In this document: positions 37,997 to 55,433 of the stretch, piece by piece
Layout of the letters: each line of letters starts with the position of its first letter
How positions within the stretch are numbered: position 1 is the first letter of the stretch
Assembly (NCBI GenBank): GCA_002238645.1
Contig: MPMT01000001.1
Location: forward strand, 1 to 64,000
From: Alphaproteobacteria bacterium bin52
Lineage (GTDB): Bacteria; Pseudomonadota; Alphaproteobacteria; Thalassobaculales; Thalassobaculaceae
Direction of reading: 5' to 3'
DNA length: 64,000 nt
The notes under the pieces: generated by a model
Told to the model about the DNA's origin: nothing
Database searches by the model: none
The model's input: the letters and a program-made list of their open reading frames with translations, nothing else
Position numbers and translations under genes: made by a program

Positions 37997-38137
37997 ATCC
38001 TGCGTGATGCCGGCGGGAGGCGGGAAGACCCGGGCTCCCGCACCCTGATGGCGGTCTGCGTCGGGTTGCGCCATGGCCCCGGTGTGCGCGATGCTGCGCT
38101 GCCTTTGCAGTTCCATCAGCAGACGGGAGTTTCCACC

Positions 38138-39124: not shown

Positions 39125-39144
39125 ACGCAACCCGGAGAACGCGC

Positions 39145-40341
39145 ATGGGCGCCGCACTCGAAGGCATCCGCATCATCGACATGACTCACAACCAGGCCGG
39201 TCCGGCCTGCACCCAGGTCCTGGCCTGGCTCGGCGCCGAGGTGATCAAGCTCGAGGAACCCGGCAAGGGTGACGTTGCCCGCATTCACATGCGCGAGAAG
39301 TCTGACGGCGACAGCCTGTTCTTCCTGGTGCTGAACGCCAACAAGCGCAGCCTGACCCTCAACCTCAAGCACGAGGAGGGCAAGGCGCTGTTCCGCCAGG
39401 TGATCGCCAGCGCCGATGTCCTGGTCGAGAACTTCTCTCCCGGCGCGCTCGACCGGCTCGGCTTCGGCTACCAGGCGCTGCGCGAGATAAACGAGCGGCT
39501 TATCTACGCCACCATCAAGGGCTTCGGAACCTGGGGGCCCTACAGCGGTTTCAAGAGTTTCGAGCCGATCGCCCAGGCCATGGGCGGAGCGATGTGCACC
39601 ACCGGGTTCCCGGAAAACCCGCCGACCTTCGTGTGGCCTGGCATCGGGGATTCCGGAACCGGCATGCACCTTGCGATCGGCATCCTCGCCGCGCTGCAGC
39701 AGCGCCACAGCACCGGCACCGGTCAGCAGGTCGAGGTCTCGATGCAGGACAGCGTCGTCAACATCATGCGGATCAGCCTTCGGGACCACCAGAGGCTTGG
39801 CGGGGTGCAGCCGCGCACCGGCAACCAGCTCGGACGCACGGTACCGGGCTCGACCTATCCCTGCGCCCCGGGCGGGCCCAACGACTACATCTTCATCTTT
39901 GCGCAGCAACAGATGTGGCGTGCCTTCGCGACAGTAATCGGACGGCCCGACATCATCGACGATGCACGCTATGCCACCTTCGACGCCCGTTGGGACAATC
40001 GCGAGAGCCTGAATGCGATCATCGAGGGCTGGACCCGGCAGCATACCAAGCACGAAGCCATGCGATTGCTGGGCGACGCAGGAGTCCCGTCCGGCGCCTG
40101 CCAGGATACCGGCGAGATCTTCGATGACCCGCATCTGCGGGAACGCGACATGATCGTCGACCTCGACTATCCGGATCGCGGGGGCTACATGACTGTGGGG
40201 TGCCCGATCAAGTTGTCGGACTCGGCCGCGTCTGTGGTGCGGCCGCCGGTGCTGGGAGAACACACCGACACGGTGCTGACCGAGCTGTGCGGGGTCACAC
40301 CAGACGAGATTGCGCGCCTGCGCAACGAGGGCGTGATCTGA
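39145..40341 (+). CDS. CaiB/BaiF family (class III) CoA transferase
   Basis: This is a 398-residue formyl-CoA-transferase-like enzyme. GIRIIDMTHNQAGPACTQVLA and LGAEVIKLEEPGKGD form the N-terminal core with the catalytic Asp expected near LSLTxD-type positions. LVENFSPGALDRLGFGYQAL and GQQVEVSMQDSVVNI are family-typical. It moves CoA between organic acids. It lies between two dioxygenases in one transcription unit, so it probably activates or recycles an acid they handle. Confidence 0.9.
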   Translation: MGAALEGIRIIDMTHNQAGPACTQVLAWLGAEVIKLEEPGKGDVARIHMREKSDGDSLFFLVLNANKRSLTLNLKHEEGKALFRQVIASADVLVENFSPGALDRLGFGYQALREINERLIYATIKGFGTWGPYSGFKSFEPIAQAMGGAMCTTGFPENPPTFVWPGIGDSGTGMHLAIGILAALQQRHSTGTGQQVEVSMQDSVVNIMRISLRDHQRLGGVQPRTGNQLGRTVPGSTYPCAPGGPNDYIFIFAQQQMWRAFATVIGRPDIIDDARYATFDARWDNRESLNAIIEGWTRQHTKHEAMRLLGDAGVPSGACQDTGEIFDDPHLRERDMIVDLDYPDRGGYMTVGCPIKLSDSAASVVRPPVLGEHTDTVLTELCGVTPDEIARLRNEGVI

Positions 40342-40365
40342 AGAAAGGCCGCCACGGAGGAAGCA

Positions 40366-41253
40366 ATGTCGATCACCATCAGGCAAGTCCACCCGCATTT
40401 CGTCGGTGAGGTCTCGGGTCTCGACCTGCGCCGGCCGCTCGACCCCGAACAGGCCCGGGAGATCCACGAGGCCATGGACCGGCTGGGCGTCCTGGTCTTC
40501 CACGACCAGGACCTGTCCGACGACCATCAGGTGGCGTTTTCCCGTAGCTTCGGAAAGCTCGAACTTGCGGTCGGCTCGAACGTGGTCAAGCCCGAACAGC
40601 GCCGGTTGCGGCTCGAGATGGCGGACGTGAGCAACCTGGACAAGCACGGCCAGATGCTCGAACGCAACGACCGACGACGCATGTTCAACCTTGGCAACAG
40701 GCTCTGGCACTCCGACAGTTCGTTCCGCGCCACTCCGTCCAAGTTCTCGATCCTGTCGTGCCGGTCGAAGCCCAGTACCGGCGGGAACACCGAGTACGCC
40801 TTCATGCCCGCCGCCTATGAAGCACTGGATCAGGAAACCCGCGAAGAGATTGCGGACCTGGTGACCGAGCATTCGCTGATCTTCTCGCGCGGCGTGATGG
40901 GGTTCGCGGACTTCAGCGAGGAGGAGCGCGCAACCTTCGAGCCCGTGCGCCATGCGCTGGTCCGGACCAACCGGCTCACCGGGCGCAAATCGATCTACCT
41001 GTCGTCCCATATCGGCTCCATCGTCGGCTGGCCGGTGCCCGAGGCCCGTGATTTCATCCGCGACCTTATCGAGCACGCTACCCAGCCGGAGTTCCGTTAC
41101 GTGCACGAGTGGCGGGTCGGCGACCTGGTGATGTGGGACAACCGGCAGTGCATGCACCGCGTGCGGCGGTTCCGCGACACCGGCGAGGTTCGCGACATGC
41201 GCAGGACTACGGTCGCCGGCGAAGGACCGACGATTGAGGCCGAGGCCGCCTGA
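40366..41253 (+). CDS. TfdA/TauD family 2-oxoglutarate dioxygenase
   Basis: This is a 295-residue alpha-ketoglutarate-dependent dioxygenase. The 2-His-1-carboxylate facial triad appears as His115 and Asp117 in LWHSDSSF and His264 in CMHRVRRF; DMRRTTVAG supplies the 2-oxoglutarate Arg. The LWHSDSSF motif is closer to TfdA/phenoxyalkanoate-type enzymes than to taurine dioxygenase, but both remain possible. It is 24 bp after the CoA transferase, with a GGAGGAAG ribosome-binding site. Confidence 0.88.
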   Translation: MSITIRQVHPHFVGEVSGLDLRRPLDPEQAREIHEAMDRLGVLVFHDQDLSDDHQVAFSRSFGKLELAVGSNVVKPEQRRLRLEMADVSNLDKHGQMLERNDRRRMFNLGNRLWHSDSSFRATPSKFSILSCRSKPSTGGNTEYAFMPAAYEALDQETREEIADLVTEHSLIFSRGVMGFADFSEEERATFEPVRHALVRTNRLTGRKSIYLSSHIGSIVGWPVPEARDFIRDLIEHATQPEFRYVHEWRVGDLVMWDNRQCMHRVRRFRDTGEVRDMRRTTVAGEGPTIEAEAA

Positions 41254-41401
41254 GGGCCCGCGCCCGGTGCGCCGCCGGCGACACGGTGGCACTGGTTGCT
41301 GATGGCCGGCTGAACGCCCCGTACCCCGGGGCGCCGCCCGCTTGTATGCTCTGGCAGGTCTGATCTACCGTTGCGGGGAGGAACTGCACGGGAGATCAGC
41401 C

Positions 41402-42703
41402 ATGACAACCAGAGACAGCAATCGTGAGGCCAGCCTGTTCGATCTCTACGCCCGGGATCCGGAGCGTGCGGACTGGCTGGTGTTCGGGCGCAGGAGCCAC
41501 GGTGACCGACGCGGTTTCCTGAAGGGCGCCGGCCTTGCAACCATGGGAGCGCTGGTCGGCGCCGCCATCCCGTTCCACCGGTCGATGCCGTCGGGATTCA
41601 TTCCCGAGGCCATCGCCGCCAGCCCGGAGGCCATCGCCGGCAAGGACGGTCTGACAATCCTGAACGACCGGCCGGTCAACGCGGAAACACCACCGCACCT
41701 GCTGGATGACGAGGTCACGCCGACGTCGCGTCACTTCATCCGCAACAACGGCCTGCTGCCCGACGACATGGACGCGGCGACCTGGTCACTCACCGTCGAT
41801 GGCCTGGTCAACACGCCGCTCACGCTCTCGATCGAGGATCTCCGCTCCCGGTTCGAGGTCGTGACGCGTCGGCTGACCATCGAGTGCGGCGGCAACGGAC
41901 GCGCCTTTTTCGATCCGCCCGCACGCGGCAACCAGTGGACACTGGGCGCCGTCGGCTGCGCGGAGTGGACCGGTGTACGGCTGCGCGACGTGCTGGAAGC
42001 CGCGGGACTGGGGAACGGCGTGGTCTACACCGCCCACGAAGGGGCGGACACCCACCTGTCGGGGTCCGACAAGCTGCCGATCTCGCGCGGTGTGCCGATC
42101 GAGAAGGCGATGGACCCGAACAACCTGGTCGCGTTTGCCATGAACGGCGGCCCGCTGCATGCGATGAACGGCGCGCCGTTGCGACTGGTCATACCGGGCT
42201 GGCCGGGATCGTGTTCGCAGAAGTGGCTGAAGCGCATCTGGCTTCGTGACGTGGTCCACGACGGCGCCAAGATGACGGGAAGTTCCTACCGGGTTCCGGA
42301 CTACCCGGTGGCGCCCGGCGAGAAGGTGCCGAAGAGCGCCATGAAGATCATCCATTCCATGCCGGTCAAGTCGTTGATCACCACGCCCGAGACCGGCCTT
42401 GAAATCGCGGGACGCTCGCTTGAGGTTGCCGGCCACGGCTGGGCCGGGGATCACGAGGTGGCGCGGGTCGACGTGTCCATTGACTTCGGAGCGACCTGGC
42501 AGCAGGCCGAGCTTGCGGCACCGGCCAATCCCTACGCGTGGCAGAGATGGTTGGCGACGGTCACCTTTCCGCAGCACGGCTACTACGAGGTCTGGGCCCG
42601 CGCGACCGATACGGAGGGACACAGCCAGCCCTTCGCCATCGCGTGGAACCCGAAAGGCTACCTCAACAACGCGATGCACAGGATCTCGGTCCGGGTGACG
42701 TGA
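41402..42703 (+). CDS. Sulfite dehydrogenase/oxidase, molybdopterin subunit (SorA-like)
   Basis: This is a periplasmic Mo enzyme of the sulfite oxidase family, 433 residues. A twin-arginine signal is visible (RRGFLKG, 36-42, then a hydrophobic stretch). The Mo-binding core has LTIECGGNGRAFF with the cysteine ligand Cys162 and LRLVIPGWPGSCSQKWLKR. The C-terminal dimerisation domain includes VARVDVSIDFGATWQQAEL. It oxidises sulfite to sulfate, passing electrons to the cytochrome c encoded by the overlapping next gene (GTGA junction). It may detoxify sulfite from organosulfonate breakdown. Confidence 0.9.
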   Translation: MTTRDSNREASLFDLYARDPERADWLVFGRRSHGDRRGFLKGAGLATMGALVGAAIPFHRSMPSGFIPEAIAASPEAIAGKDGLTILNDRPVNAETPPHLLDDEVTPTSRHFIRNNGLLPDDMDAATWSLTVDGLVNTPLTLSIEDLRSRFEVVTRRLTIECGGNGRAFFDPPARGNQWTLGAVGCAEWTGVRLRDVLEAAGLGNGVVYTAHEGADTHLSGSDKLPISRGVPIEKAMDPNNLVAFAMNGGPLHAMNGAPLRLVIPGWPGSCSQKWLKRIWLRDVVHDGAKMTGSSYRVPDYPVAPGEKVPKSAMKIIHSMPVKSLITTPETGLEIAGRSLEVAGHGWAGDHEVARVDVSIDFGATWQQAELAAPANPYAWQRWLATVTFPQHGYYEVWARATDTEGHSQPFAIAWNPKGYLNNAMHRISVRVT

Positions 42704-43020
42704 TCGCGCGGTGCCGCCTGCCGGTACTGGCACTGGGTGCAGCTCTGCTCACCTGGTCCGGTACGGCAGTGGCCGAGGACGAGACGCTGCCGGCGGGAAC
42801 CGGACGGAACGATGTCGAAGCGCTGTGCGGTTCCTGCCATTCGCTGCGCCTGGTTACCCAGCAGGGCCTTGCGCGGGACGTCTGGTCCGAGGTCATCGAC
42901 TACATGGTCGAGGAACAGGACATGCCGGAACTCGAACCGAACGAGGAAGTCCTGATCCTCGACTACCTCGCACGGTTCTACGGCCCCGACCGGCTTGGAG
43001 CGAGAACCGCCGGACAGTAG
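42700..43020 (+). CDS. Small c-type cytochrome (SorB-like)
   Basis: The GTG start at 42700 overlaps the sulfite dehydrogenase stop by four bases. 106 residues: signal peptide (1-25, cleavage near TAVAED), one haem motif CGSCH (43-47), and a Met-containing EEQDMPELEPNE region as possible sixth ligand. It is the expected electron acceptor of the molybdopterin subunit. No reductase or oxidase genes are close. Confidence 0.88.
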   Translation: MIARCRLPVLALGAALLTWSGTAVAEDETLPAGTGRNDVEALCGSCHSLRLVTQQGLARDVWSEVIDYMVEEQDMPELEPNEEVLILDYLARFYGPDRLGARTAGQ

Positions 43021-43054
43021 CCGGGCGAACTGCGGGCAGCGAGGGAAAACGCCA

Positions 43055-43666
43055 GTGATCATGATTTCGACCTTTCAGGCACACTCCCGCCGCGGCGGGC
43101 TGCTGTACGCTCTGCTCCTGCTGGCGGTGATCGGCATCCTGGCGGTCGGTGCCGCGAACGCCGACGACCGGGCAACGGGAACCCGGGAGGGCGCGGAAAC
43201 CGAAGAGGACTGGCGGGGCCTGGTCGAGGCGGCGGCCTATGCCTACGAGGCCCGCCGACCCTACCAGGCGCAGGAACTGCTCGAACGCGCGGTCGGGAAG
43301 ACGGAACCCGGCAGCGAGGAACGGGCGGCCGTGCTCAACAACCTCGCGATCGTACTGGAGACCAACGGGCACCTCTCGGCAGCCGAGCAGCTCTACGTCC
43401 GCGTGATCGGGCTGTGGACGGCTCTGCTGGGGCCCGACGACATCAACGTTGCGCGCACCCTGGGCAACCTGGCCGATCTCCATCACCGCCAGGGACAGCT
43501 CGAAGAGGCCGCCGAGGCCTACGGGCTGGCACTGCAGAGCATCGGGCTTGTCTCCGGGCCCGAGGCGGAACAGGTTCGCGGCATCCTCGAGGAGGGGCAG
43601 ATCAGGGTCCGTGATGACCAGGAACGACAGGCGTCCGAAGGTGGCGCCAAGGACCGCGGTTCCTGA
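43055..43666 (+). CDS. Tetratricopeptide-repeat protein, exported
   Basis: Read from a GTG at 43055 with GAGGG nine bases upstream; an ATG two codons later is the alternative. An N-terminal membrane/signal segment (about 15-32) leads to a helical region with at least three TPR-like units: AAVLNNLAIVLETNGHLSAA, VARTLGNLADLHHRQGQLEE and further Ala/Leu-rich helices. Such proteins bind partner proteins. It lies directly after sorAB-like genes, and a role with them is inferred only from position. Confidence 0.65.
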   Translation: MIMISTFQAHSRRGGLLYALLLLAVIGILAVGAANADDRATGTREGAETEEDWRGLVEAAAYAYEARRPYQAQELLERAVGKTEPGSEERAAVLNNLAIVLETNGHLSAAEQLYVRVIGLWTALLGPDDINVARTLGNLADLHHRQGQLEEAAEAYGLALQSIGLVSGPEAEQVRGILEEGQIRVRDDQERQASEGGAKDRGS

Positions 43667-44017
43667 CGCCGGGCGACCGGCATCACCGTGAGCGAATGCC
43701 CGTCGATCGTTCCCCGCAGAGTGCCCGATTGTCGATCACAGCAGAGAAACGCTGGTCCGACACGATCCGGACACTCTAGGCCACGGACAGACAGGGACGC
43801 GTCGGCAGGCAAGGTTCGCGTGCCCGCCAGTTCAGCGTGCGTGCGCAATACAGGTCCAGAGACACTGTCATAATGGCACTGTGTGTTCTGCGGGCGACCA
43901 CCTGTCGCCGACAGCGGTCATCTCGCTGCGCTGTGACATCGTTGGCGACTGCAGCGGCGGTCACAGTGTCGGCCAGGTCCCTGAAAGCGACAAGGTGCAG
44001 GTTGCGGCCGACGCGCT
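43667..44017. other. Non-coding stretch
   Basis: About 350 bp between the TPR gene and the AbiEi remnant. Only short open frames without domain character are present. I see no terminator with a U-tract. Confidence 0.45.
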
Positions 44018-44514
44018 TCAGATCGCGAGATCGCGGTATTCAGCTGGCGCCGTGGCCGGTCGGAGACGCGGCTGGTCCGAGAGGACCGACTTTCGGACGA
44101 TGTCGGCGGCGGTGCGCTTTGCGTGGGTACACTCGATGGTGCCGTAGGAGGTCCTGAACACTCCCTTGCGCCCTGTCGTCATGAAGGTCAAATACTGTAC
44201 GGGAACCTGGGAAATGACGCCCCACTCCGAAAGGACGCATTCCAGGCTGGTGTAGTTGAATTCGCCGGCGCGCATCGCTGCGGCACTCTCCTCGAGCAGT
44301 CACCCGTGGCTGCGGCCCGACAAGGGATACAAGTAGAGGCCCTTGCCGAGCCGACCCGCTCGAGCAAGTCGACCCACGCCAGGCCAGCGAGGCTTTCCGA
44401 GAGAGCCTTCGCGGAATCGTCCGGGAACATCATTCGCGTGTCGGAGAATGTGAACGCGGCTCGCCCGCACCGCTCCCAGTCGGTGAGCGTATTGATGGCT
44501 TCGGCAATGCGCAT
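44018..44514 (-). pseudogene. AbiEi-type antitoxin remnant, frameshifted
   Basis: From 44514 the minus strand reads MRIAEAINTLTDWERCGRAAF and a winged-helix-like region to LLERVG, then shifts frame at about 44350. A second piece, GKGLYLYPLSGRSHG, ends at a TGA. The third piece resumes with GEFNYTSLECVLSEWGVISQ and TTGRKGVFRTSYGTIECTHA, matching the C-domain of AbiEi/DUF6088 antitoxins of type IV toxin-antitoxin systems (Y/S-x-L-E-S-x-L-S-x-W-G and RTxYGxIE). No AbiEii nucleotidyltransferase partner is adjacent. It ends only 37 bases from the direct repeat bracketing the Zorya-like cassette. Confidence 0.65.
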
Positions 44515-44550
44515 CCGGGTTCTCGTTGGTGGTCATATACCTGAGCCGCT

Positions 44551-44853
44551 CTTGCAAACAGCGGGATCACGCGATTTCAGGGCCCTGAATAGGGGCAATT
44601 TTCTGAAAGAGAGGGGGCATAGGGATCACCCAGTGGTATGTTGAAGTTGCAAAACCAACAACATACTGACGAAAAGCAGTCTCCCCGATGCCCTGTTTTG
44701 AGAGTGTGTCCGACCTCTGGTACCGATTCCAAGGCGAGTTGTTTCCCGAACTGACCGCCGCCGTGGATCGTCTGTCGGATTGGCGCCGGAAGTTGATCGT
44801 GGTACTGGAGTCTGCGCCTCCCGAAGACCATCTCAGCCCGCAATTTTGCAAGC
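44551..44853 (+). mobile_element. IS-derived direct repeat, copy 1
   Basis: Begins CTTGCAAACAGCGG and ends with ATTTTGCAAG, so both ends carry CTTGCAAA as inverted termini. Inside is a short transposase-like N-terminus (VSDLWYRFQGELFPEL, then RRKLIVVLE) as in IS1182/IS5-type transposases, without the rest of the gene. The sequence recurs with many changes at 50793-51116 in the same orientation. It is probably an internally deleted, non-autonomous copy. No target duplication was found around it. Confidence 0.6.
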
Positions 44854-44883
44854 AGTTCGTGGTGCCGATCCGAATACAGACGT

Positions 44884-47007
44884 TCACCTACGGGCTCTGT
44901 CATGGCCTTGCTGTTTCACTCTCTCGCGTTTCGACGTTCCGCGCCATTCCCACGGCGGTACGGGGGGACGGCCGGACCAGATTCCGCGCCGGGCTTGGCG
45001 GGCGACGGCTTCATCACCGGCATAGGTTTTTGAGGACTTGACGAATGCAAAGGCCCATCCGGCTTCTACCACCCAACGGTTCAGTTCGACTTCCTCTCCT
45101 TCAATCCTACAAACACCCCGAAGCCGCACCAAACCGGGACGCAAGCGATCGCAGACTACATTGCGGCCTGCGATGTGCCGCTCCAGCGCCAGGCCCGCCT
45201 CGCGGCCGCAGGCCCATTCGGACTCGTCCGCGGCGGTACAGGGCTGCTTGAGTTCGGGCGCATCGATACCGTCGAGCCGAACCTGTGTTGCGGCCTCCCC
45301 GATCTTTATCGTATCGGCGTCGATCACCTGCGCCTTGCCGCCGAGCCGCCGAATCGCGCCCCTGCTGGTTTCAATCCGTCCGGCATCTCCGAGATCGGCG
45401 ATAAGCCTGTCGCGGTTGAATTCATGCCCGAGCACGACGCGCCGCGATGCGCTCGGGTCTTCCCTTCCATCCACCGTTACAGGCCTGGACGACGAATATC
45501 CGACGGCCGTGAGCTTGCCGCGCGCCCACTCTCCGAGCGGCGTTCCGGCCGCATGGTCCAAGCAATGCGCCAGCACCGACTGCGCCCGGCGTTGCGACAG
45601 GCCGAGATTCGCCACCCATGCATCCCGTTTCGTTTGCGCGCTCTTCCATTCCGGCGAGGAATGGCCTTCGATGCGGATTTCGTCGATGTCGAACCGGTCC
45701 GCCGAGTTCCTGAGTTCTGCCAGCCATCGAGGGCAAATGTCGTCCAGAACGGCCTTGAAACTTGGCGGTATAACTGCGCTACCGGTCTCGAAAACCACCG
45801 TTTCGGGAAAGACGACCCGGCCGGAAGGGTCGATCTTCCCGCCCGCCTTCTCCACGTCCGTCGCAAGCTCGCGTTTCAGACTGTCGATGAATTCCCCGCG
45901 CGCCGCCGCGTCTTCGGCGAGCCGGTCCTTGACCGCCGCAAGCCGGCTATCGACGGCGCGTTCCTTTGCCAGCAGATCCTCGATCCGGCTCACCAGCTCT
46001 TCGTTACTGTCTTCTCCGTCGGGATCGAGCGCGCGGCGCAGGTCAATTGCTTCGACGATCTCCTCTTCGTTCTCCTTGATCCATTGCTCGTAGCCCTCCA
46101 ACGCCGCCAGACGCTCCGGCGACACCGGGATCGCATCCGTCGAAAGCGCGTCCGGGTCTCGCGCAAGTCCGGTAAGTTTCTGCAACTCGTCCGGCTCCAG
46201 GGCTGCCGCCGCTTTCGCCAGATCACGTTGCGCCGGGTCCTCGACTAGCCCTGCCCGTTCTTCCAACGTTGCCAGCCGTTCATTCGACACCGGGACCGCC
46301 CCTTCCGTCAGCGCCGCCGCCGCCACAATCGCCTCCGGGTTGCGGGCAAGTTCGGCGAGCTTTCGCAACTCGCCCGGCTCCAGGGTTGCCGCTGTCTCCG
46401 CCAGTTCGCGCCGCGCCGGGTCCTTGACCAACCCCGCCCGTTCCTCCAACGCCGCTAGCCGTTCCTCCCGCACCAACGCAGCGCCTTGTTCAACCAGCCG
46501 CCAGTCCTCCGGTGACAGTTGTGACACCCGTTCCGCCTGTTCCTTCAACGCCGCCAGCCGTTTACTCGACACCGGGACCGCTCCTTCGGACAGCGTCGCC
46601 GCCGCCGCAACCGCCTCCGGGCTGCGGGCAAGTTCGGTGAGCTTTCGCAACTCGGCCGGCTCCAGGGCTGCCGCCGTCGCCGCCAGTTCGCGTCGCGTCG
46701 GGTCCTTGATCAACCCCGCCCGTTCCTCCAACTCCGCTAACCGTTCCTCCCCCACCAACACAGCGCCTTGTTCAACCTGCCGCCAGTCCTCCAGTGACAG
46801 TTGCGACGCTCGTTCCGCCTGTTCCTTCAACGCCGCCAGCTGCTCCGCCGGCACCAACGCAGCCCCTTGCTCAATCAGCGCCCAGTCCTCGGGAGACAAT
46901 TGCGATGCCCGTTCGACCTCATCCTGCACTTGATGGCGCCAGAACAGCAGCAGCATCAGCAGCACGAAAGCGACCAGCATGAACGCCTCGGCGACCGTCA
47001 GCCCCAT
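44884..47007 (-). CDS. ZorB/MotB-like motor subunit with OmpA and nuclease domains
   Basis: 707 residues from the ATG at 47007, which has a GGGGAG site close upstream. An N-terminal membrane helix (about 4-23) carries Glu in TVAEAFMLVAFVLLMLLL where MotB/ZorB have a proton-binding Asp. Three imperfect 94-residue helical repeats follow (about 30-320), with SQLSPEDW, LVxEERLAxLEERAG and ARxPEAxxAAA. The OmpA-like peptidoglycan-binding domain (about 400-537) has VVFETGSAVIPPSF and IEGHSSPE. The C-terminal thermonuclease domain (about 564-679) keeps Asp in IDADT, Arg in VRLDGIDAPE, its Asp and Glu, and a later Arg. The one-helix topology puts the nuclease in the periplasm. Confidence 0.82.
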   Translation of the reverse strand: MGLTVAEAFMLVAFVLLMLLLFWRHQVQDEVERASQLSPEDWALIEQGAALVPAEQLAALKEQAERASQLSLEDWRQVEQGAVLVGEERLAELEERAGLIKDPTRRELAATAAALEPAELRKLTELARSPEAVAAAATLSEGAVPVSSKRLAALKEQAERVSQLSPEDWRLVEQGAALVREERLAALEERAGLVKDPARRELAETAATLEPGELRKLAELARNPEAIVAAAALTEGAVPVSNERLATLEERAGLVEDPAQRDLAKAAAALEPDELQKLTGLARDPDALSTDAIPVSPERLAALEGYEQWIKENEEEIVEAIDLRRALDPDGEDSNEELVSRIEDLLAKERAVDSRLAAVKDRLAEDAAARGEFIDSLKRELATDVEKAGGKIDPSGRVVFPETVVFETGSAVIPPSFKAVLDDICPRWLAELRNSADRFDIDEIRIEGHSSPEWKSAQTKRDAWVANLGLSQRRAQSVLAHCLDHAAGTPLGEWARGKLTAVGYSSSRPVTVDGREDPSASRRVVLGHEFNRDRLIADLGDAGRIETSRGAIRRLGGKAQVIDADTIKIGEAATQVRLDGIDAPELKQPCTAADESEWACGREAGLALERHIAGRNVVCDRLRPGLVRLRGVCRIEGEEVELNRWVVEAGWAFAFVKSSKTYAGDEAVARQARRGIWSGRPPVPPWEWRGTSKRERVKQQGHDRARR
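46303..46853 (-). repeat. Tandem 282-bp coding repeats
   Basis: Two long, closely similar DNA units lie in register inside the ZorB-like gene; the same words recur 282 bp apart, for example GCCTCCGGG at 46331 and 46613. They encode 94-residue helical modules, with partial units on both sides. Unequal exchange could change the module number. Confidence 0.75.
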
Positions 47008-47084
47008 GATCGCTCCCCGGCGGTACTGGCTGCCGGAGTCCCCCGCAGGGAAGTATCTGTGCACCGCTCAGTGCCCCGTTTCGC

Positions 47085-48476
47085 CTAACGGCCGCGGTTG
47101 AACAAATTGCCTAAAGGCCACGAGGAGTCCGGCCTTCTATCCGCCAGGTCGCCGAGTTTCCCTATGGCTGTGGACAGCGCAGTATTCGCTGTTTCCAGCC
47201 TTTCCGCGGCGTCCGCAATGCGCTCCGCCGCGCCGGCAATATTCGTTTGCAAGTCGGCTGCGGTAGTGCGTTCCGCCGCCGCCTCGAAGTTTTCCGCCGC
47301 CGATTTGAGCTTCCCGGATGAGTCCGCCAACGTTGTAGAGACGGTGGATGCGCTCTCACCTATACGCGCGACCGCAGGTTCGAGCTTAGTTGCAATGCCA
47401 TCCTCGACCCTTGCAAGTGTGCCGACGAGGCCGGACAGCGCCGCGTCAAGGCCATGGCTCTCGCGCGATAATGTAACTATACCACCGGTCAACGCCTTCA
47501 TGCGCTCCAGTTCGTTGCGGACCGCTTCCGCGCTCTCTCCCGTTTGCTCGAAGGTTGTCCGGCTCAGGTTCGCCAGCTGGCCCACCTCCTCCCGGTATTC
47601 CGCAATCGCCTGTACGGCATCGCCCAGGACACGGCGCAGGTCGGCCATGGTACTTTCGAGTATCTGCCCGTATTCCCCGCTGCTGTGCTGCAGCGCTTCC
47701 CGAATGGAGCCATGACGCTCGGAGATAGTTTCAGTAATGTCCTTCAGGGCTTTGCGAAAAGCGGAAACGCTTTCTTGCGCAGCCACCCGATACGTCTCGG
47801 CGTCGTGGGCCACGCCTTCCTCTACGGCTGCCCAGTGCTCCGACAGCTTGCTTTCGGTTTCCTCGGAGAAACGGGTCAGCGCCGTTGAGCTGGACTCCAA
47901 AGCCTGCCGGTGTGCATCCGTATCCTGCGCCAAGGTTTTCCGAATTGCGTCCCGCTGTTCGGCCAATATCTGGCTCGTTTCGACTGAATAGCGCTTCAAT
48001 TCACCAATGCTCATGCTGAGATGGGTGCGGAAATCGCGCACGGCGAGATCGAAATCGACGCGCGTTTCGCTTTCCTGCTGCGCAATATCGGGGGCCATCC
48101 TCTGCATCAGAACCCGCAACACAATACCGGCGATTGTCGAGGAAAGCGCAACGCCGAAGCCCGCAATCGTCTTCCCGAGCAACTGGTCCTGCGGGGCTGC
48201 ATCGGCCGGCTCGTAGAGCTGGTAGAGGGTAACGGCTAGGCTCGTCAGTGTAAACACGAAACCAAGATAATAGCAGTTATCGCCGATTATGTCGTAGATG
48301 CGCTTGTCACTGATTGCGAGCGCAATCATCCAATAAACAAACAAAACCGCTATTGGCAGTCCAATGACTTCATAAATTGTAAAGTCCTGCAATCTAAAAT
48401 ACAGAATGCCGCCACTTCCCGCCAAAAAAGCAAGTGCAAGCGTCCCTCTGTTCAAACTCTCTCGACTGCTTCGCAT
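47085..48476 (-). CDS. ZorA/MotA/ExbB-like channel subunit with long coiled coil
   Basis: 463 residues read from the ATG at 48476 with an AAAGG site nine bases upstream; an ATG nine codons earlier (48503) is possible. Four hydrophobic segments lie in the first about 130 residues, including LPIAVLFVYWMIALAI, YYLGFVFTLTSLAVTLY and GFGVALSSTIAGIVLRVLM, the last like the pore helices of MotA/ExbB/ZorA. From about residue 140 to the end it is an unbroken Ala/Glu/Ser-rich coiled coil, comparable to the cytoplasmic tail of ZorA. With the next gene it would form a 5:2-type proton-driven motor; that is inference from family architecture. Confidence 0.75.
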   Translation of the reverse strand: MRSSRESLNRGTLALAFLAGSGGILYFRLQDFTIYEVIGLPIAVLFVYWMIALAISDKRIYDIIGDNCYYLGFVFTLTSLAVTLYQLYEPADAAPQDQLLGKTIAGFGVALSSTIAGIVLRVLMQRMAPDIAQQESETRVDFDLAVRDFRTHLSMSIGELKRYSVETSQILAEQRDAIRKTLAQDTDAHRQALESSSTALTRFSEETESKLSEHWAAVEEGVAHDAETYRVAAQESVSAFRKALKDITETISERHGSIREALQHSSGEYGQILESTMADLRRVLGDAVQAIAEYREEVGQLANLSRTTFEQTGESAEAVRNELERMKALTGGIVTLSRESHGLDAALSGLVGTLARVEDGIATKLEPAVARIGESASTVSTTLADSSGKLKSAAENFEAAAERTTAADLQTNIAGAAERIADAAERLETANTALSTAIGKLGDLADRRPDSSWPLGNLFNRGR

Positions 48477-48509
48477 GACAAAAGACCTTTGGTGAAAATG
48501 CACGTAATC

Positions 48510-49337
48510 TCACAGATCGCCAAGCAGGCAAGTGGTAGTACGGACACGGCTTGCACCCGCCCGATCGAAATAGTTAACCCAAAAGTCATCCACCGCCGCC
48601 TTATCAACCCCGGCGCCGGGCCTTGGAACGCGGCATATCTCGACCTCGACGCCCCGCAAACGGCCCGCCAGGCGTTCCGCGTCCTGCGAGCGAACGAAAC
48701 GCCGCCAAGTGTCGCCACGATAGAAGCTGAAAGCCTCGCTGTTCTGGATCAGGTCCGAAACGATGATCACCCGCCGGGGATACGACGCATCGACGAAGCC
48801 CGGAGCCGATACAAGCAGCGCCTGCAACGACTCCATAATCGGCGAGCGCTCCGCCGCCGAACTGTCCAGCATCGCCGAAACGATAGCCTCAAAGGGCTCC
48901 AGAAACTCCTCCCGGTAACGCTCCTCGATCATGCGCGGGTTCTGGTAAATCTCGCTCGCCTCTTTCCCCGTCGCCGGCTTGCAGCGGGCAAAAACCGCGC
49001 CTCGCTCAGCGGCATCCACTCGCACTGCGCCCACTGCAATAAGCGTCCCCTGCCTGGCGTCATCGATCCGGCTGTCGAGCAGGCCCCGGAGACGATTATG
49101 CTGCACCGGATTCAGCGAATCGGTCAGATCAAGAAGCACCGCCAACCCGGCTGCAGAGCCGGAAGTCTTCGGGCAGAGCCTTTCATCGACGGTCTCCCCC
49201 TTGAATACGAACTGCACAAGGACGACCGCACCGATTGCGACGACGACGGCCACGGCCATTACAGCGGCCCACACCCAATTCGGAGCGCGCCCTCCGCGTT
49301 CGCGTGTCGTCCAACGCCTTCGCGGATAGCGGCTCAC
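48510..49337 (-). CDS. Membrane-anchored von Willebrand A-like protein
   Basis: Read from a GTG at 49337 that overlaps the preceding gene by four bases (GTGA), 275 residues. A longer ATG reading would overlap by 52 bp and add an Arg-rich tail. One membrane helix (WVWAAVMAVAVVVAIGAVVLV) is preceded by basic residues. The following domain starts LAVLLDLTDSLNP, with a DxTxS motif like the metal site of vWA domains, and has VDASYPRRVIIVSDLIQNS as a later core strand. Such domains form protein-protein contacts. Predicted to face the periplasm. Its role beside the motor genes is unknown. Confidence 0.65.
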   Translation of the reverse strand: MSRYPRRRWTTRERGGRAPNWVWAAVMAVAVVVAIGAVVLVQFVFKGETVDERLCPKTSGSAAGLAVLLDLTDSLNPVQHNRLRGLLDSRIDDARQGTLIAVGAVRVDAAERGAVFARCKPATGKEASEIYQNPRMIEERYREEFLEPFEAIVSAMLDSSAAERSPIMESLQALLVSAPGFVDASYPRRVIIVSDLIQNSEAFSFYRGDTWRRFVRSQDAERLAGRLRGVEVEICRVPRPGAGVDKAAVDDFWVNYFDRAGASRVRTTTCLLGDL

Positions 49338-50701
49338 GCGCGGCCGCTCCGGTCGCCATCGAACGAATCCATGGCGTCTTGGCATGTCCGATGGATGCGC
49401 TCCACCGCCTTCTCCACGACGTCGGCAAGGTGTCGCGCAACTTTCGAATTCGGCGGCGGGGGCTCAACCAACTCCTCTTCGGCGGGGAAGCTGAACGCCT
49501 GTCGGAAATAGCCAGGTTCCGGCGTGCTGCGGGCTTTGCGGTTGGCATCTCGGTAAACAGCCAGCAGATCACCAGAAATCCGGTCGCACTCCTGTAGAAA
49601 AACCCGCCGCTGGCCAGCAAGCGCCAAAAGTCCTGTCCGGGCGCCTTGAGCGGTTTTGAATCCGCTCTGAAGTTTGTCACACTCAATCCCCAGATCGGTG
49701 ACCGCACTGTCGCGGGTCTCGATCAGAGCCCTGAATGTCTCGTCTCGCAATTCTTGCCAATCACGCCGTTTCTGGTCGAATTTATCTGATACCCGGCTGT
49801 AACCGGGGTATGGATCGACCGCGCCATACGCTTTCCAGCCGGCAATGGCTGCAAACAGCAGTCCGAGACCGGTTAACAGCCAAGCATCTAAACTTTGCAT
49901 TTGCGCATGTCCGGCAACCACACGTTCGAATGCCGCTCCAGCGGCTTCATTCCAATCGACTGTCGCGGTCAAGTCCCGAAAGTGCCCAACCAAAAAATTA
50001 GTAAAAAAAGCAAAACATACGCCAAGGATCAACGCAAGACAACCCACGAGTTTACGCAAGAACGTCGCATGATTTTTCTGACGGACACTATGTCCTGCAA
50101 TACTCGCGGCTCCAACATTGACAATTGAAATTACCAAGGCAGTAATCACACCGCCCGCCAATCCTGCTACATTAGCATCAGCAAAGAAGACTCCGTTCAG
50201 TGCCGATTCCGCAAGAATTATGATGGAGCACAACGCCCACCACTGCCACATACCTCCCGTTTGGTACGCCTGCCGGTCTAGACCATTGTCCTGCTTGAAT
50301 CGCATGAGGCCGGCTTCGCTTCCATTCAGGTCGTCTCGCGCATTATTCAATCGGGTACGTCTCGCATTCACCTCCCTACGAAAATCGGTTTCGGTATTGT
50401 TGGCAATGTTCCGAATCCCCGGTCCGATAGCGTCAACGGCCTCAATGCGCTCCCGGTACACCTGTTCGTGCTCGGCCGCGTTCCCCAACCCCTGCCGCCG
50501 AAGCTTCCCGACGGCGGCGATCGCCTCCCGCTCCACCGGATCAAAATCGACGGCGTTGCTGTCGGGTTGGCCGACCCTGCCGTTCTCCAGTCCGCGCACT
50601 TCCAAACGGAGTTGCTTCCCGATGGCGTCGAGATCGACTGGAGGGAATATCTCGCCCGGCAAGGTGGTTTGGTGGTTCTGTTTCTTGTTCAGGCCGAACA
50701 T
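49334..50701 (-). CDS. Multi-TM protein with flanking coiled coils, family not recognised
   Basis: 455 residues, first gene of the four-gene operon. An N-terminal cytosolic-like region (about 1-140) is helical. Four membrane helices follow: WWALCSIIILAESAL, GLAGGVITALVISIV, LVGCLALILGVCFAFF and AWLLTGLGLLFAAIAG. The remainder is again helical (DKFDQKRRDWQELRDETF and beyond) with a Pro-rich stretch near PAEEELVEPPPP. I do not recognise a family. Part of this gene and the bases after it are visibly less GC-rich than neighbouring genes, in line with horizontal origin. Confidence 0.7.
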   Translation of the reverse strand: MFGLNKKQNHQTTLPGEIFPPVDLDAIGKQLRLEVRGLENGRVGQPDSNAVDFDPVEREAIAAVGKLRRQGLGNAAEHEQVYRERIEAVDAIGPGIRNIANNTETDFRREVNARRTRLNNARDDLNGSEAGLMRFKQDNGLDRQAYQTGGMWQWWALCSIIILAESALNGVFFADANVAGLAGGVITALVISIVNVGAASIAGHSVRQKNHATFLRKLVGCLALILGVCFAFFTNFLVGHFRDLTATVDWNEAAGAAFERVVAGHAQMQSLDAWLLTGLGLLFAAIAGWKAYGAVDPYPGYSRVSDKFDQKRRDWQELRDETFRALIETRDSAVTDLGIECDKLQSGFKTAQGARTGLLALAGQRRVFLQECDRISGDLLAVYRDANRKARSTPEPGYFRQAFSFPAEEELVEPPPPNSKVARHLADVVEKAVERIHRTCQDAMDSFDGDRSGRA

Positions 50702-50772
50702 GCTCTCGAACGCTCCCTTCCCGCCACCCTCTCCTGCCTACGCCCGCCTTCCGAACTCAGCACGGCAGAGTA

Positions 50773-50799
50773 ACTATACTATAGAGCCATGCCTTGCAA
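50773..50799 (-). promoter_or_regulatory. Possible outward promoter at the IS-derived repeat
   Basis: On the minus strand TTGCAA (50799-50794), part of the terminus of repeat copy 2, is followed by 15 bases and TATAGT (50778-50773), upstream of the first cassette gene. The spacer is shorter than the usual 17, and a second overlapping TATAGT lies closer. A hybrid promoter formed by the repeat edge is possible but not proven. Confidence 0.35.
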
Positions 50800-51116
50800 A
50801 TCAGCGGTCTCACACGATTTCAGGGACCTGAACAGGGGCGATTTTCGGAAAGAGAGGGGGCACAGGGACCACCCAGTGGTATATTGGTGTTGGGATACCA
50901 GTAACATACTGACGAATAGCAGTCTACCCGATACCCTTGTTCAAGAGTGTGTCCGAATTTCTGGCGCTGATTTCAAGGTGAGTTGATTCCCGAACTGACC
51001 GATGCCGTGGGTCGACTGTCGGATCGGCGCCGGAATCTGGTTGCGGTATTGGAGTTTGCGCCCTCTGAAAACCGGTCAGCGTCTCTCCCACCACTCTGAG
51101 TTCACAGTTTTGCAAG
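50793..51116 (+). mobile_element. IS-derived direct repeat, copy 2
   Basis: CTTGCAAATCAGCGG start, TTTTGCAAG end. It aligns throughout with 44551-44853, with matching blocks such as GAAAGAGAGGGGGCA, AACATACTGACGAA, GAGTGTGTCCGA and TTCCCGAACTGACCG. Same orientation as copy 1, so the two bracket the four-gene operon with only 30 and 91 bases to spare. Confidence 0.6.
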
Positions 51117-51615
51117 TAGCTCACCTGATATTGATATAGGTGTTTTGTCCACCAGAACCGACGGACATTCCGTGTCCCGGAGAGCCTCGAGCGGCTGACT
51201 GCGAGCCTGGCGCGGCCCCGACAACGCTGCGGAACCGGCCGGCGACCTCGCGGGTCCGGAGGAGCCGATCACTCCCCCGGTGGCCTGTGGCCGGTCGGGT
51301 TCAGCGACCACGTCGACGTGCCGGAAGCGGGCCACGGGAATGCCCGGCACAGGCGCCGGCCGGGACCTGAGCGGCGGGGTCCTCGGGAGCCGCCCGCACT
51401 CCGGATAACCGGCGTGAAATCCGTGGCACCTGCAACGGGACATGACTGTCGCCCTCCGCACGGGCGGTAGTTCTTGACGCACGCCATGATGCGTCCCATG
51501 GTCGATCGATGGTCGCCTGCGTCCGCAAAGGCCGGAACCGGGCATCCGTCGCAACCCTCATGTTTAGCGGTCAGGCGCTGCATTGGCCGGACCGTCCCGC
51601 CAGGAGGTCCGCGTC
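51117..51615. other. Non-coding stretch before flotillin
   Basis: About 500 bp. No gene, tRNA or inverted repeat that I trust. An AGGAGG ribosome-binding site at 51602-51607 belongs to the flotillin gene. Confidence 0.45.
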
Positions 51616-53214
51616 ATGACATGGTTTGTCACCATCGTCGTCGTCCTGATCGTTGCCGTTCTGGTCGTCCTGTTTCTCAACCGGTACTTCCGCAAGGCAA
51701 CGCGCGAAGTGGCGCTGATCCGGACCGGTGCCGGCGGGCAGCGGGTCATTCTCGATGGGGGCTGCCTGGCGCTGCCGTTCCTGCACAAGGTATCGGAAAT
51801 CAACATGCGGACCTCGAAGCTGGAGATCGAGCGCCTGGGTCCGAAGTCGATGATCACCTCCGATCGCCTTCGGGTCGACATCGGCGCGGAGTTCTATGTC
51901 CGCGTCGACGCCAGCAGGGACGGTGTGGCAACGGCAGCCCAGGCACTGGCCGGCAAGACCTTTCGCGCTTCCGATCTTGCCGAAACTCTCGAAGGCAAGC
52001 TGGTCGACGCCATGCTCTCGGTCGCGGCCGGTTACACCATGGATGAACTCCAGGACAACCGGGCCCGTTTCAGCGCCGAGGTCAGCGAAATCCTGGCATC
52101 CAACCTGGCGCAGAACGGCCTGCTGCTGGAATCGGTCTCACTGACCCGGCTGGACCAGACCCCCTTCCATGCGCTGGATGAAAACAACGCATTCAATGCG
52201 CTCGGCATGCGGCGGCTGTCGGAAATCATCGCGATCAACAGGAAGGAACGTGCCGCGATCGAGGCGGACGCCGAGGTTTCCGTTCGCCAGAGCGAACTCG
52301 AAGCGACCAAACGCAAGCTCCTGCTCAGCCAGGAAGAGGAAAAGGCGACGATCGACCAGCACCGGGAAATCGAAACCGCCCAGGCGCGCAGCCAGGCAGT
52401 CGTGGCCGAAGAACAGGCCGCCAGCGAACAGCGCCGCGATACCGCCCGGCTCGAGCGCGAGCGCGAGGTCCGCATGGCTGAAATTGCGCGCGACCGCACA
52501 CTTCGCCAGCAGCAGCTGGACAGCGAACTGAACGTTGCAACGACACGGGTCGACAACGCGGTGAAGCTCGCCGCAAAGCAGATCGAGGAAGCCCGGGCCC
52601 AGGCGGAGGCCCAGGCCGCGAAGGCCGAAGAAGCAGCGGCCGAGGAAGACGTACGCACCGCCCGAGAAACCGCGGTGGCAATGCGCGACCGGCGTCTGGC
52701 GGTCATCCGGGCCGAGGAACAGGCCGAAGTGGACGATACAAGGGTCCGGTCGGAAACGGGTACCGTCGTTGCAATGGCCGAGGCGGAAGCCAGGGCGCTT
52801 CTGGAACGCGCCAGGGCCGAAAAGGAGGAAATGGTCGCCAGGGCGGAAGGCACGGCGGCCCTGGTCGATTCCGAAAACGCGCAAAGTGATGAATTGCTGC
52901 GCTACAAGCTGAACCGCGCACGGATCGAAGCCCTGCCCGGCGTGGTCGAGCGGGTGATGAAGCCGACCGAGAAGATCGAGTCGATCCGTGTCAATCACAT
53001 CACCGGAATGAGCGGCGGCAGCGGCAGCGGATCGCCGGATGGCAGGTCCGGCGTCAACGATGTCGTGGACGGTGTGCTCAATCTCGCTCTGCAACTGCCG
53101 GCAGTGAAGCGCCTCGGCGAAGAGGTCGGTGTCAATATCGGCGACGGCGTGAGCGGCATCACCCGTATCCTGGAAGACGACGACACCGACACCACCGAAG
53201 AACCGGAAAAATGA
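51616..53214 (+). CDS. Flotillin family (SPFH-domain) protein
   Basis: 532 residues from ATG 51616 with AGGAGG eight bases upstream. One N-terminal membrane helix (VTIVVVLIVAVLVVLFL) is followed by an SPFH/PHB domain (about 25-210, with VALIRTGAGGQRVILDGG and VSLTRLDQTPF). A long Glu/Ala/Arg-rich coiled coil (about 220-430) then leads to the C-terminal tail. It organises membrane microdomains, often for signalling or envelope stress. No NfeD-type partner is adjacent. It begins right after the accessory cassette and looks like host-genome sequence. Confidence 0.88.
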   Translation: MTWFVTIVVVLIVAVLVVLFLNRYFRKATREVALIRTGAGGQRVILDGGCLALPFLHKVSEINMRTSKLEIERLGPKSMITSDRLRVDIGAEFYVRVDASRDGVATAAQALAGKTFRASDLAETLEGKLVDAMLSVAAGYTMDELQDNRARFSAEVSEILASNLAQNGLLLESVSLTRLDQTPFHALDENNAFNALGMRRLSEIIAINRKERAAIEADAEVSVRQSELEATKRKLLLSQEEEKATIDQHREIETAQARSQAVVAEEQAASEQRRDTARLEREREVRMAEIARDRTLRQQQLDSELNVATTRVDNAVKLAAKQIEEARAQAEAQAAKAEEAAAEEDVRTARETAVAMRDRRLAVIRAEEQAEVDDTRVRSETGTVVAMAEAEARALLERARAEKEEMVARAEGTAALVDSENAQSDELLRYKLNRARIEALPGVVERVMKPTEKIESIRVNHITGMSGGSGSGSPDGRSGVNDVVDGVLNLALQLPAVKRLGEEVGVNIGDGVSGITRILEDDDTDTTEEPEK

Positions 53215-53258
53215 CGGGCAACGGCCCGCCACGCACACAGTAACGGAGGGGATGCGCC

Positions 53259-54509
53259 ATGCAACTCAAACGCAGACAGTTCCTTGCCTCGGCCTCGGCC
53301 GCCGCGCTCGCAAGTCCCGCCATCATCGGCCGGGCCGTGGCGGCCGACGGGATCAAGTTTGTTTCGATACTCGACCAGTCGAACGGCCTCGACATCTATG
53401 GCAAGCCGATGGTCGAGACAACGCGGATGGCGGTGGATGAAATCAACGCCGCCGGCGGGTTGCTCGGACGACCGATCGACCTGAAGGTCTATGATCCGCA
53501 GTCGAGCATTCAGCTCTACACCCAGTTTGCCACCCAGGCCGCAGCCGGCGACAGGGCCGACGTGGTCCATGCCGGCATTACCTCTGCAAGCCGCGAGGCG
53601 ATCAGGCCGACATTCAGTCGGTTCCGCGTGCTGTACTTCTACAACGTTCTGTACGAGGGCGGTGTCTGTGACATCAACAATTTCTGCACCGGCTCGACGC
53701 CCGCACAGACGGTCGAAAAACTGGTTCCCTACACGATGAACAAGTGGGGCAAGAAGGTCTACATCATCGCTGCCGACTACAACTACGGACAGATTACAGC
53801 GCAGTGGGTGCAGAAATATGTCCGGGACAACGGCGGCGATCCGGTTGCGACCGAGTTCTTCCCGCTTGATGTCACGAATTTCGGACCGACCATCAAGAAG
53901 ATCCAGCAGGCCCAGCCGGACATGGTCATGTCGGCCCTGGTCGGCGGAGCCCATGTCTCGTTCTACCGCCAGTACGCGGCTGCCGGCATGAATGCGTCGA
54001 TTCCGATCGCGTCCACGACCTTCGGTGTCGGCAACGAGCACAAGCTGATCTCGGCCGAGGAAGGCAATGGCATGATCTGTGCCTATTCCTACTTCGAGGA
54101 AGTCGACAACGCGACCAACAAGGCGTTCGTGCAGCGGTTCCGTGACCGGCTCGGCGACGACGCCCCGGCGCTGAACGAACTGGCGGCCCGGGCCTACGAA
54201 GGCGCCTATATCTGGGCCGAAGCGGTCAGGCAGGCCGGCACCACCGAACGCATGGCGGTCATCGAGGCGCTGCGAAGCGGCGTGTACTACGACGGTCCGT
54301 CGGGACGGGTGCAGATCGAACCAAAGACCAACCACGCCAACCAGAACGTGTACCTGGCCGAACTGAAGGACCAGTCGTTCCAGATCCTTGAGACATACGA
54401 GAACCAACCTCCGACCGATACGCTGCTGGTCTGCGATCTGGTCGCTGACCCGAACCAGTCGACCTTCAAGTTCGAGAACGGTCTGAAGGCCGCGGGCATC
54501 GATATCTGA
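53259..54509 (+). CDS. Amide/urea-type ABC transporter substrate-binding protein
   Basis: 416 residues with a twin-arginine-like signal (KRRQFLASASAAALASPAII). This is a periplasmic type-1 binding protein of the UrtA/FmdD/AmiC group: KFVSILDQSNGLDIYGKPM, VYDPQSSIQLYTQFATQA and ADYNYGQITAQWVQKYV follow the family pattern. A hairpin terminator-like element after it may allow higher expression than the permeases. With the amidase encoded downstream, short-chain amides are the best guess for substrate; urea or branched-chain amino acids remain possible. Confidence 0.85.
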   Translation: MQLKRRQFLASASAAALASPAIIGRAVAADGIKFVSILDQSNGLDIYGKPMVETTRMAVDEINAAGGLLGRPIDLKVYDPQSSIQLYTQFATQAAAGDRADVVHAGITSASREAIRPTFSRFRVLYFYNVLYEGGVCDINNFCTGSTPAQTVEKLVPYTMNKWGKKVYIIAADYNYGQITAQWVQKYVRDNGGDPVATEFFPLDVTNFGPTIKKIQQAQPDMVMSALVGGAHVSFYRQYAAAGMNASIPIASTTFGVGNEHKLISAEEGNGMICAYSYFEEVDNATNKAFVQRFRDRLGDDAPALNELAARAYEGAYIWAEAVRQAGTTERMAVIEALRSGVYYDGPSGRVQIEPKTNHANQNVYLAELKDQSFQILETYENQPPTDTLLVCDLVADPNQSTFKFENGLKAAGIDI

Positions 54510-54519
54510 CCTGTCTCGA

Positions 54520-54548
54520 CCGGGGCCGGCAACGGCCCCGGTTTCTTT
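54520..54548 (+). terminator. Hairpin with T-rich tail between binding protein and permease
   Basis: CCGGGGCCG (54520-54528), loop GCAA, CGGCCCCGG (54533-54541), then TTTCTTT. A leaky Rho-independent terminator would explain higher expression of the binding protein than of the downstream permeases, a common ABC-operon feature. Confidence 0.65.
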
Positions 54549-54563
54549 CCGGAGATCGACGCC

Positions 54564-55433
54564 TTGGATCTCGTCGTATCACTGGCACTGCAGATCCTCT
54601 ACGGGATCGCCAATCTTGCACTGATCAGCCTCGGCCTTGCGATCATTTTCGGAATGATGAGGGTGATCAACCTTGCCCACGGCGAGTTCCTGATGCTTGG
54701 TGGCTACACGGTCGTGATCGCCACCAACAACGGGGTCAACATCTGGATCGCCATGCTGGTCCTGGCGCCGCTGGTGGTGGGCGTCATCGGCGTCGTGGTC
54801 GAGCGTCTGCTGATCCGCTGGCTGTATGGCCGGATGATCGACACCCTTCTCGCGACCTGGGGCCTGTCGCTGCTCATCATCGGCCTGGTGACGTCCATAT
54901 TCGGTGCCTCGACCGCGACCACGATTTCTCCGCCGCTTGGCGTGATCACCATCGGCTCCTACACCTCGTCCGGCTACGAGATGTTCCTGATCGTGGTGAC
55001 CGTGCTGCTGCTGGTCGCCGTCTATGCGACACTCAAGCTGACGACGCTCGGACTGGTGGCCAGGGGCACCATGCAGAATGCCGAGATGTCATCTGCCCTC
55101 GGCGTTTCGACCTCGCGCATCTACATGATCACCTTTGGCCTGGGTGCAGCGGTGACCGGGCTTGCCGGCGGGCTGCTGGCGCCGATCACCGGCATCCTGC
55201 CGACAATCGGCGCCGTCTACATCGCCAAGGCCTTCATCACCGTGATCTCGGGAGGCATGGCGATCCTTGCCGGTACCGCCACGGCGTCCGCTCTGCTCGG
55301 CGGCGTCAACGGGATCGTCGCCTTCCTGACCGGACCGACACTCGGCGAGGTGGCGCTGCTCGTGACCGCGATCATCCTGCTTCGCCTGATGCCACGCGGG
55401 ATTACCGGCACCCTGTTCCGGAAAAGCCTGTGA
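54564..55433 (+). CDS. Branched-chain/amide ABC transporter permease (LivH/UrtB-like)
   Basis: 289 residues from a TTG start (54564) with a GGAG site. Eight or more hydrophobic segments are visible, with the family loop INLAHGEFLMLGGYTV near residue 36 and LGLVARGTMQNAEMSSALGV in the coupling region that meets the ATPase. The next permease starts within its stop codon. Confidence 0.92.
   Translation: MDLVVSLALQILYGIANLALISLGLAIIFGMMRVINLAHGEFLMLGGYTVVIATNNGVNIWIAMLVLAPLVVGVIGVVVERLLIRWLYGRMIDTLLATWGLSLLIIGLVTSIFGASTATTISPPLGVITIGSYTSSGYEMFLIVVTVLLLVAVYATLKLTTLGLVARGTMQNAEMSSALGVSTSRIYMITFGLGAAVTGLAGGLLAPITGILPTIGAVYIAKAFITVISGGMAILAGTATASALLGGVNGIVAFLTGPTLGEVALLVTAIILLRLMPRGITGTLFRKSL

Follow-up and report, generated by a model that had tools for sequence, protein, structure and literature searches.

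A recurrent four-gene cassette related to Zorya, with an interchangeable nuclease module, in an alphaproteobacterial insertion

Introduction

What is a motor-like gene pair that carries a nuclease domain doing inside an insertion which a sister genome lacks? The question is raised by four genes, here called A, B, C and D, in the first 64,000 nucleotides of contig MPMT01000001.1 of Alphaproteobacteria bacterium bin52 (assembly GCA_002238645.1), a stretch referred to below in its whole length as the window. A preliminary description, made from the letters of the window, had proposed that four tightly spaced minus-strand genes, bracketed by direct repeats derived from an insertion sequence (IS), form a Zorya-like defence cassette without ZorC, ZorD and ZorE, in which a periplasmic effector is fused to the ZorB-like subunit; it gave co-occurrence of the four genes in defence islands as a point to check, and named homologues occurring apart or in housekeeping contexts as a point against itself. 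Zorya is the precedent for a flagellar-type motor serving phage defence, with nucleases that work on the cytoplasmic side, where they can harm the host's own chromosome. In the current model, disturbance of the wall by phage leads ZorB to bind peptidoglycan and the channel to open, and the rod or tail of ZorA is proposed to recruit a cytosolic nuclease, possibly damaging the chromosome too (PMC11890865). Here we report that the four-gene cassette is a new, recurrent system and argue that it is probably a defence against incoming DNA, a sister of Zorya in which a motor would gate a nuclease barrier in the periplasm. A literature search found no description of the four-gene set, although most subscription papers were beyond its reach and an earlier description is possible.

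Results

The four genes recur as a set

A profile scan of 84,980 species genomes with an alignment of C returned 211 relatives, of which 80 were kept. All 71 C-anchored loci with enough flanking sequence carried A, B, C and D, with the order A-B-C-D in 70 of them, and C was never found without A, B and D among the C-anchored loci with room for them. Plasmids (72,556 records) were searched with A and C independently, each search yielding 24 records, distributed identically among genera. Two IMG/VR contigs, found with the C pattern, hold all four genes plus an SNase; no viral contig was found with the B pattern, and A had no match in phage records. When loci were anchored on A, 13 of 20 were complete, one was cut by a contig end and six held only A and B, so A+B is a module able to stand alone. 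Co-occurrence held wherever C was present with enough flank, and separation of the genes was seen in the form of A+B pairs. All four genes are under purifying selection (dN/dS, the ratio of nonsynonymous to synonymous substitution rates, of 0.10-0.28 against the closest relative, L009, with dS saturated for A), which together with their recurrence as a set excludes chance.

The cassette is accessory. It is present in 13 of 385 genomes of the class (~3%), in a patchy pattern, is borne by plasmids and is absent from the corresponding site of a sister species; a sample of the phylum gave 13 of 398 genomes, two of them marginal. In the window the whole cassette lies within a 6.59-kb segment (Table 1) that is lacking from G001, a genome of the same genus. 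G001 matches window positions 38007-43719, 43974-44537 and 51129-56787 at 86-94% identity in one continuous stretch, the last two matches being only ~7 bp apart, and this contiguity of the flanks marks the segment as a discrete insertion. Its four genes follow one another with overlaps or gaps of no more than ~20 bp, and lie between two direct repeats at distances of ~25 bp and ~82 bp from the two outer genes, so that the arrangement originally described was recovered in place. The repeats are the end segments of the insertion, lying inside its clean ends. They are real, but their proposed derivation from an IS is unproven, since no transposase was recognised and the genome holds a single further 56-bp piece of repeat sequence and no other full copies. 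The outer repeat ends carry a short imperfect inverted repeat (TGAGC..CTTGCAAA), no clear target-site duplication was seen at the clean insertion ends, and a distant blastn comparison of the repeat element with plasmid records gave no match. Besides the four genes the insertion has no gene of note and no flagellar or Tol genes; an Rfam scan found nothing within the cassette and a tRNA scan no tRNA attachment site at it.

The loci with A and B only are L154, L155, L160, L169, L170 and L171. At L169 the pair stands beside a coupling-protein-like gene and a recombinase and at L160 beside genes judged from their sequence to be tatABC-like, whilst L170 is located in the sister genome of the window.

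C and D resemble the motor subunits of Zorya

C is a motor subunit of the ZorA/MotA/ExbB type, in which a transmembrane (TM) region is followed by a coiled-coil cytoplasmic tail of ~300 residues. Its third and fourth TM helices align with E. coli ZorA2 in an hhalign profile comparison (probability 92%, E 7e-7), and PADLOC gave a weak match to ZorA2 (2.8e-6); the protein falls far under the NCBIfam ZorA cut-offs. Matches to PDB entries over the tail were discarded as coiled-coil noise, and for this reason only the TM-region comparison was used.

D consists of a TM helix, a repeat linker, a peptidoglycan-binding OmpA domain (Pfam, 5.5e-7) and an SNase domain (Pfam, 1.8e-5, better than the cut-off), and is a subunit of the ZorB/MotB type with an OmpA domain nearest to that of ZorB2. 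The OmpA part matches ZorB2 in PADLOC (1.5e-33) and chain A of PDB entry 8vvi (E 8.5e-19), and profile comparison of D with ZorB2 of the E. coli type II Zorya gave E 6.8e-20. Against the NCBIfam ZorB2 equivalog D scored 88 bits, where the cut-off is 400, and it is therefore regarded as a relative of ZorB2 and not ZorB2 itself. In the window and the relatives that were read, Glu26 of D occupies the position of the ion-carrying Asp of MotB/ZorB, and the four ZorB2-type sequences read have Asp there. The linker is longer in the window than in the aligned relatives, and its repeats may adjust how far the nuclease extends into the periplasm.

A and B are membrane proteins outside the known Zorya repertoire

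The predicted model of A (mean predicted local distance difference test score, pLDDT, of 93.4) has four TM helices between two long coiled-coil helices (residues 55-139 and 301-390, ~85-90 residues each), which are probably cytoplasmic. Within the membrane region the polar residues E165, N235 and R242 are invariant, and N169 and N195 are conserved in >90% of sequences. A belongs to no Pfam family, and its comparison with solved structures, by sequence and by fold, returned only generic helical bundles and assigned no family, which is not evidence of a new fold. B has one TM helix (36-61) and a domain whose predicted structure (pLDDT 89.9) is that of a vWA domain. Comparison with solved structures by sequence gave nothing, and the vWA kinship came from the fold search (Foldseek best E 1.7e-5), with VIA-align Z scores of ~12 across ~160 residues for many vWA/I domains. 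B carries a D86-x-T-D89, S181 and D211 set resembling a metal ion-dependent adhesion site and an invariant Cys pair, C71 and C135. As 13 Lys/Arg residues ahead of the TM helix point to an N-in, C-out topology, the vWA domain should be periplasmic, and the model makes B a membrane-anchored periplasmic vWA protein.

These architectures bear out the preliminary description of a multi-TM coiled-coil protein, a membrane vWA-like protein and a ZorA/ZorB-type pair with OmpA and SNase domains on its second member. Likewise, Pfam and PADLOC found no match to ZorC, ZorD or ZorE among the four proteins, nor to ZorF (DUF3348) or ZorG (DUF2894), genes beyond the insertion having been only partly scanned.

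The nuclease is exchanged between loci

Nucleases were surveyed at 82 loci with a usable D. An SNase is fused to the C-terminus of D at 13 of these, besides the window, and an HNH domain (GmrSD_C, PF07510, E 2e-11 to 2e-13) with invariant D-H-L-V-P, N-L and W-L-P-P motifs occupies the same place at five. At 26 other loci the SNase is a gene of its own no more than ~1.1 kb away, usually immediately upstream of A; as a control, 400 kb of DNA from four genomes contained one weak isolated SNase-like match. The catalytic-type residues D582/D584, R596, D601, E604 and R647 of the SNase domain of D are conserved across 41 family members, and Cys609, Cys638 and Cys652 are conserved as well. On a tree of A+B (79 rows, with support from the Shimodaira-Hasegawa-like approximate likelihood ratio test only) at least 25 changes of nuclease state were counted; L032, with a separate SNase, is sister to L035, where the SNase is fused, and L027, again with a separate SNase, is nested among HNH-fused loci. 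By sequence, then, the nuclease behaves as a swappable module, SNase or HNH, fused or separate.

The nuclease is probably on the periplasmic side. A Sec-like signal peptide is present at the start of most separate SNases, and this argues for that compartment independently of the topology of D; the conserved Cys residues of the SNase, the HNH domain and B, and the positive-inside pattern, were counted as further signals. Of the earlier proposal of a periplasmic effector fused to the ZorB-like subunit, the compartment therefore stands, whilst fusion as a fixed part does not, the SNase being one nuclease among several that replace one another.

Neighbouring genes are rich in defence families

At 40 loci the seven nearest genes of at least 120 residues were scanned with PADLOC at 1e-20. 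Matches to 64 PADLOC families were obtained in 135 neighbour proteins and to 80 in 140, compared with one family in 121 control genes, sampled at nine fixed positions across two genomes: G719, where the system is present, and G610, where A+B is. A single protein may match more than one family and the matches cluster in certain loci, so the contrast, though strong in kind, gives no per-locus rate. The families include BrxL, PglZ and PglX (BREX), GajA and GajB (Gabija), LmuA (Lamassu), pAgo, type II and IIG restriction-modification (R-M), PD-Lambda-1 and HEC-05. Defence-rich surroundings of the four genes were found in this sample, and a spot check of ten large neighbours identified BrxL alone, at L013.

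Discussion

Relation to known systems

The cassette shares with type II Zorya (ZorA2-ZorB2-ZorE) a ZorA-type channel subunit that extends into the cytoplasm as a long coil, a ZorB2-type OmpA domain, the operon order of A-subunit followed by B-subunit and, in some members, a linked HNH nuclease. It differs in that ZorE is cytosolic whereas the cassette nuclease would be periplasmic, fused to D or secreted, in that the TM helix of D has Glu where ZorB has Asp, and in the two additional core proteins, A and B, encoded upstream. With types I and III, the latter defined by ZorF and ZorG (PMC8565338), it has in common a motor core plus additional genes. Because the TM Asp is missing, and ZorC/D, ZorE or ZorF/G are not among the four genes, we regard the cassette as a sister of Zorya and not as Zorya. 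SNIPE, described in its abstract as a membrane-bound nuclease cutting phage DNA during genome injection, is similar in having a membrane-tethered nuclease and in deciding self from non-self by place (PMC13190303); that abstract mentions neither a motor nor a peptidoglycan-binding part, the cassette nuclease is predicted to face the periplasm, and the two are likened by description only.

A probable motor-gated nuclease barrier

Our preferred reading, which we hold to be probable though well short of certain, is a defence system against incoming DNA in which a motor gates a periplasmic nuclease. By homology, five copies of C and two of D would form an ion-driven motor in the inner membrane with Glu26 of D as ion carrier, the OmpA domains of D would bind peptidoglycan and the tails of C would form a cytoplasmic rod. 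By analogy with Zorya, puncture or local damage of the wall by a phage, or possibly by a conjugation apparatus, would cause D to engage peptidoglycan and the channel to open, and the nuclease, whether attached to D or secreted alongside, would cut DNA crossing the periplasm. Acting there, it would spare host DNA by compartment and not by sequence or modification. The least certain step is that of A+B, which would be a membrane module coupling to the motor: the coiled coils of A may bundle with the C rod in the cytoplasm, and the partner of the B vWA domain, in the periplasm, may be D, the wall or the entry apparatus.

Several observations weigh against this reading. About 35 of the 82 loci matched neither the SNase nor the HNH profiles applied, a figure that includes truncated or short D proteins and contig ends, and the nuclease may consequently not be obligatory, or other effectors may have escaped recognition; an S1/P1 nuclease is present in one neighbour set of such loci, the exact locus not having been traced. 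The six A-anchored loci without C and D all have a more divergent A, the defence matches are gathered in a subset of loci, and the immediate neighbours in the window itself are metabolic genes.

Loci lacking a recognised nuclease would also fit what is in effect a Zorya subtype, in which ions or a signal from the motor pass via the C tail to bring about growth arrest or an action in the cytoplasm, with the periplasmic nuclease as an optional extra. The long cytoplasmic tail kept in C and the large coiled coils of A point the same way, as does the proposed recruitment of cytosolic effectors by the ZorA tail (PMC11890865). We nevertheless think such a subtype unlikely, as the four-gene unit comes without a conserved cytosolic effector gene and two unrelated secreted-type nucleases have been recruited to one and the same position, being gained and lost many times. 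That conjugative or transforming DNA is the real target instead of phage DNA, by an otherwise identical mechanism, seems to us rather unlikely: all DNA in transit would encounter a nuclease in the periplasm, and the cassette occurs on plasmids, where excluding rivals pays, but Zorya, the nearest relative, acts on phage, and as a trigger for a peptidoglycan-binding sensor, puncture of the wall by phage is better documented.

Parts of the OmpA, vWA and motor kinds are found in envelope machines as well, secreted SNases occur commonly in Alphaproteobacteria, and one Rhizobium locus has a gene for penicillin-binding protein 1A (PBP1A) upstream; all three would suit an envelope-maintenance or DNA-scavenging machine, Tol-Pal-like with a periplasmic nuclease that recycles DNA phosphate, and with no part in defence. 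Such a machine is improbable in view of the patchy presence of the cassette in the class, its recent insertion, the contrast between defence-rich neighbours and a near-empty control, and the swapping of nucleases. MotAB, Tol-Pal and ExbBD are likewise ion-driven inner-membrane motors with a peptidoglycan-binding partner, from which the cassette differs in its accessory distribution, its two extra membrane proteins and its nuclease cargo.

Returning to the motor-gated barrier, evolution has repeatedly set different nucleases on the far side of the membrane, away from host DNA. If the reading is true, motors would be coupled to immunity in a second way, with self and non-self explained by compartment, and the role of the motor would lend itself to direct tests, the effector being covalently joined to the subunit that binds the wall. 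A further-reaching version, which we put forward tentatively and at somewhat short of an even chance, is a class of immunity in its own right: an ion-driven motor that senses the wall would gate a nuclease in the periplasm with interchangeable heads, A and B would form an essential new coupling module, and any DNA in transit would be destroyed before entry.

Other features of the locus

Table 1. Coordinates of the cassette, its insertion and the parts of D, as positions in the window
Feature	Position	Strand	Remarks
Gene A	50701-49334	minus	455 aa
Gene B	49385-48510	minus	291 aa; true start maybe slightly downstream
Gene C	48503-47085	minus	472 aa
Gene D	47064-44884	minus	726 aa
6.59-kb insertion	44538-51128	none	whole cassette inside; absent from sister genome G001
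Left direct repeat, ~320 bp	44542-44858	+	81-84% identity to right copy
Right direct repeat, ~320 bp	50784-51122	+	81-84% identity to left copy
D, TM helix	46945-47001	minus	near-invariant family motif Y-x-[RKQ]-G-x-x-x-G-x-T-x-[AG]-E
D, linker tandem repeats, 282-nt (94-aa)	46131-46928	minus	families D1-D3; predicted to lengthen periplasmic part
D, OmpA domain, aa 390-555	45400-45897	minus	nearest ZorB2
D, SNase domain, aa 579-708	44941-45330	minus	Pfam match and catalytic-type residues

A penicillin-binding protein was considered as a fixed partner of the cassette and rejected, being annotated at L007 only, the upstream genes of L061 and relatives having given no match. Proteins with SH3_3 (bacterial SH3) domains were seen in five of 65 scanned neighbours (for example L006:10405-11163) and are a possible further wall-binding partner.

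Elsewhere in the window, an open reading frame (ORF) with Mrr_cat_2 and ResIII domains at 31893-33014 is overlapped in a different frame by a 1355-residue ORF with Helicase_C and N6_Mtase domains at 32896-36963, and the region 31893-36963 looks like a single-polypeptide (type ISP-like) R-M gene split by a frame change. It lies in a patch of lower guanine-plus-cytosine content in which similarity to the sister genome breaks off, and beside it positions 37371-37967 gave a weak match to an IS1-type transposase (8.8e-4, under the cut-off). An SPFH/flotillin gene at 51583-53214 adjoins the insertion and has 97% protein identity in the sister genome.
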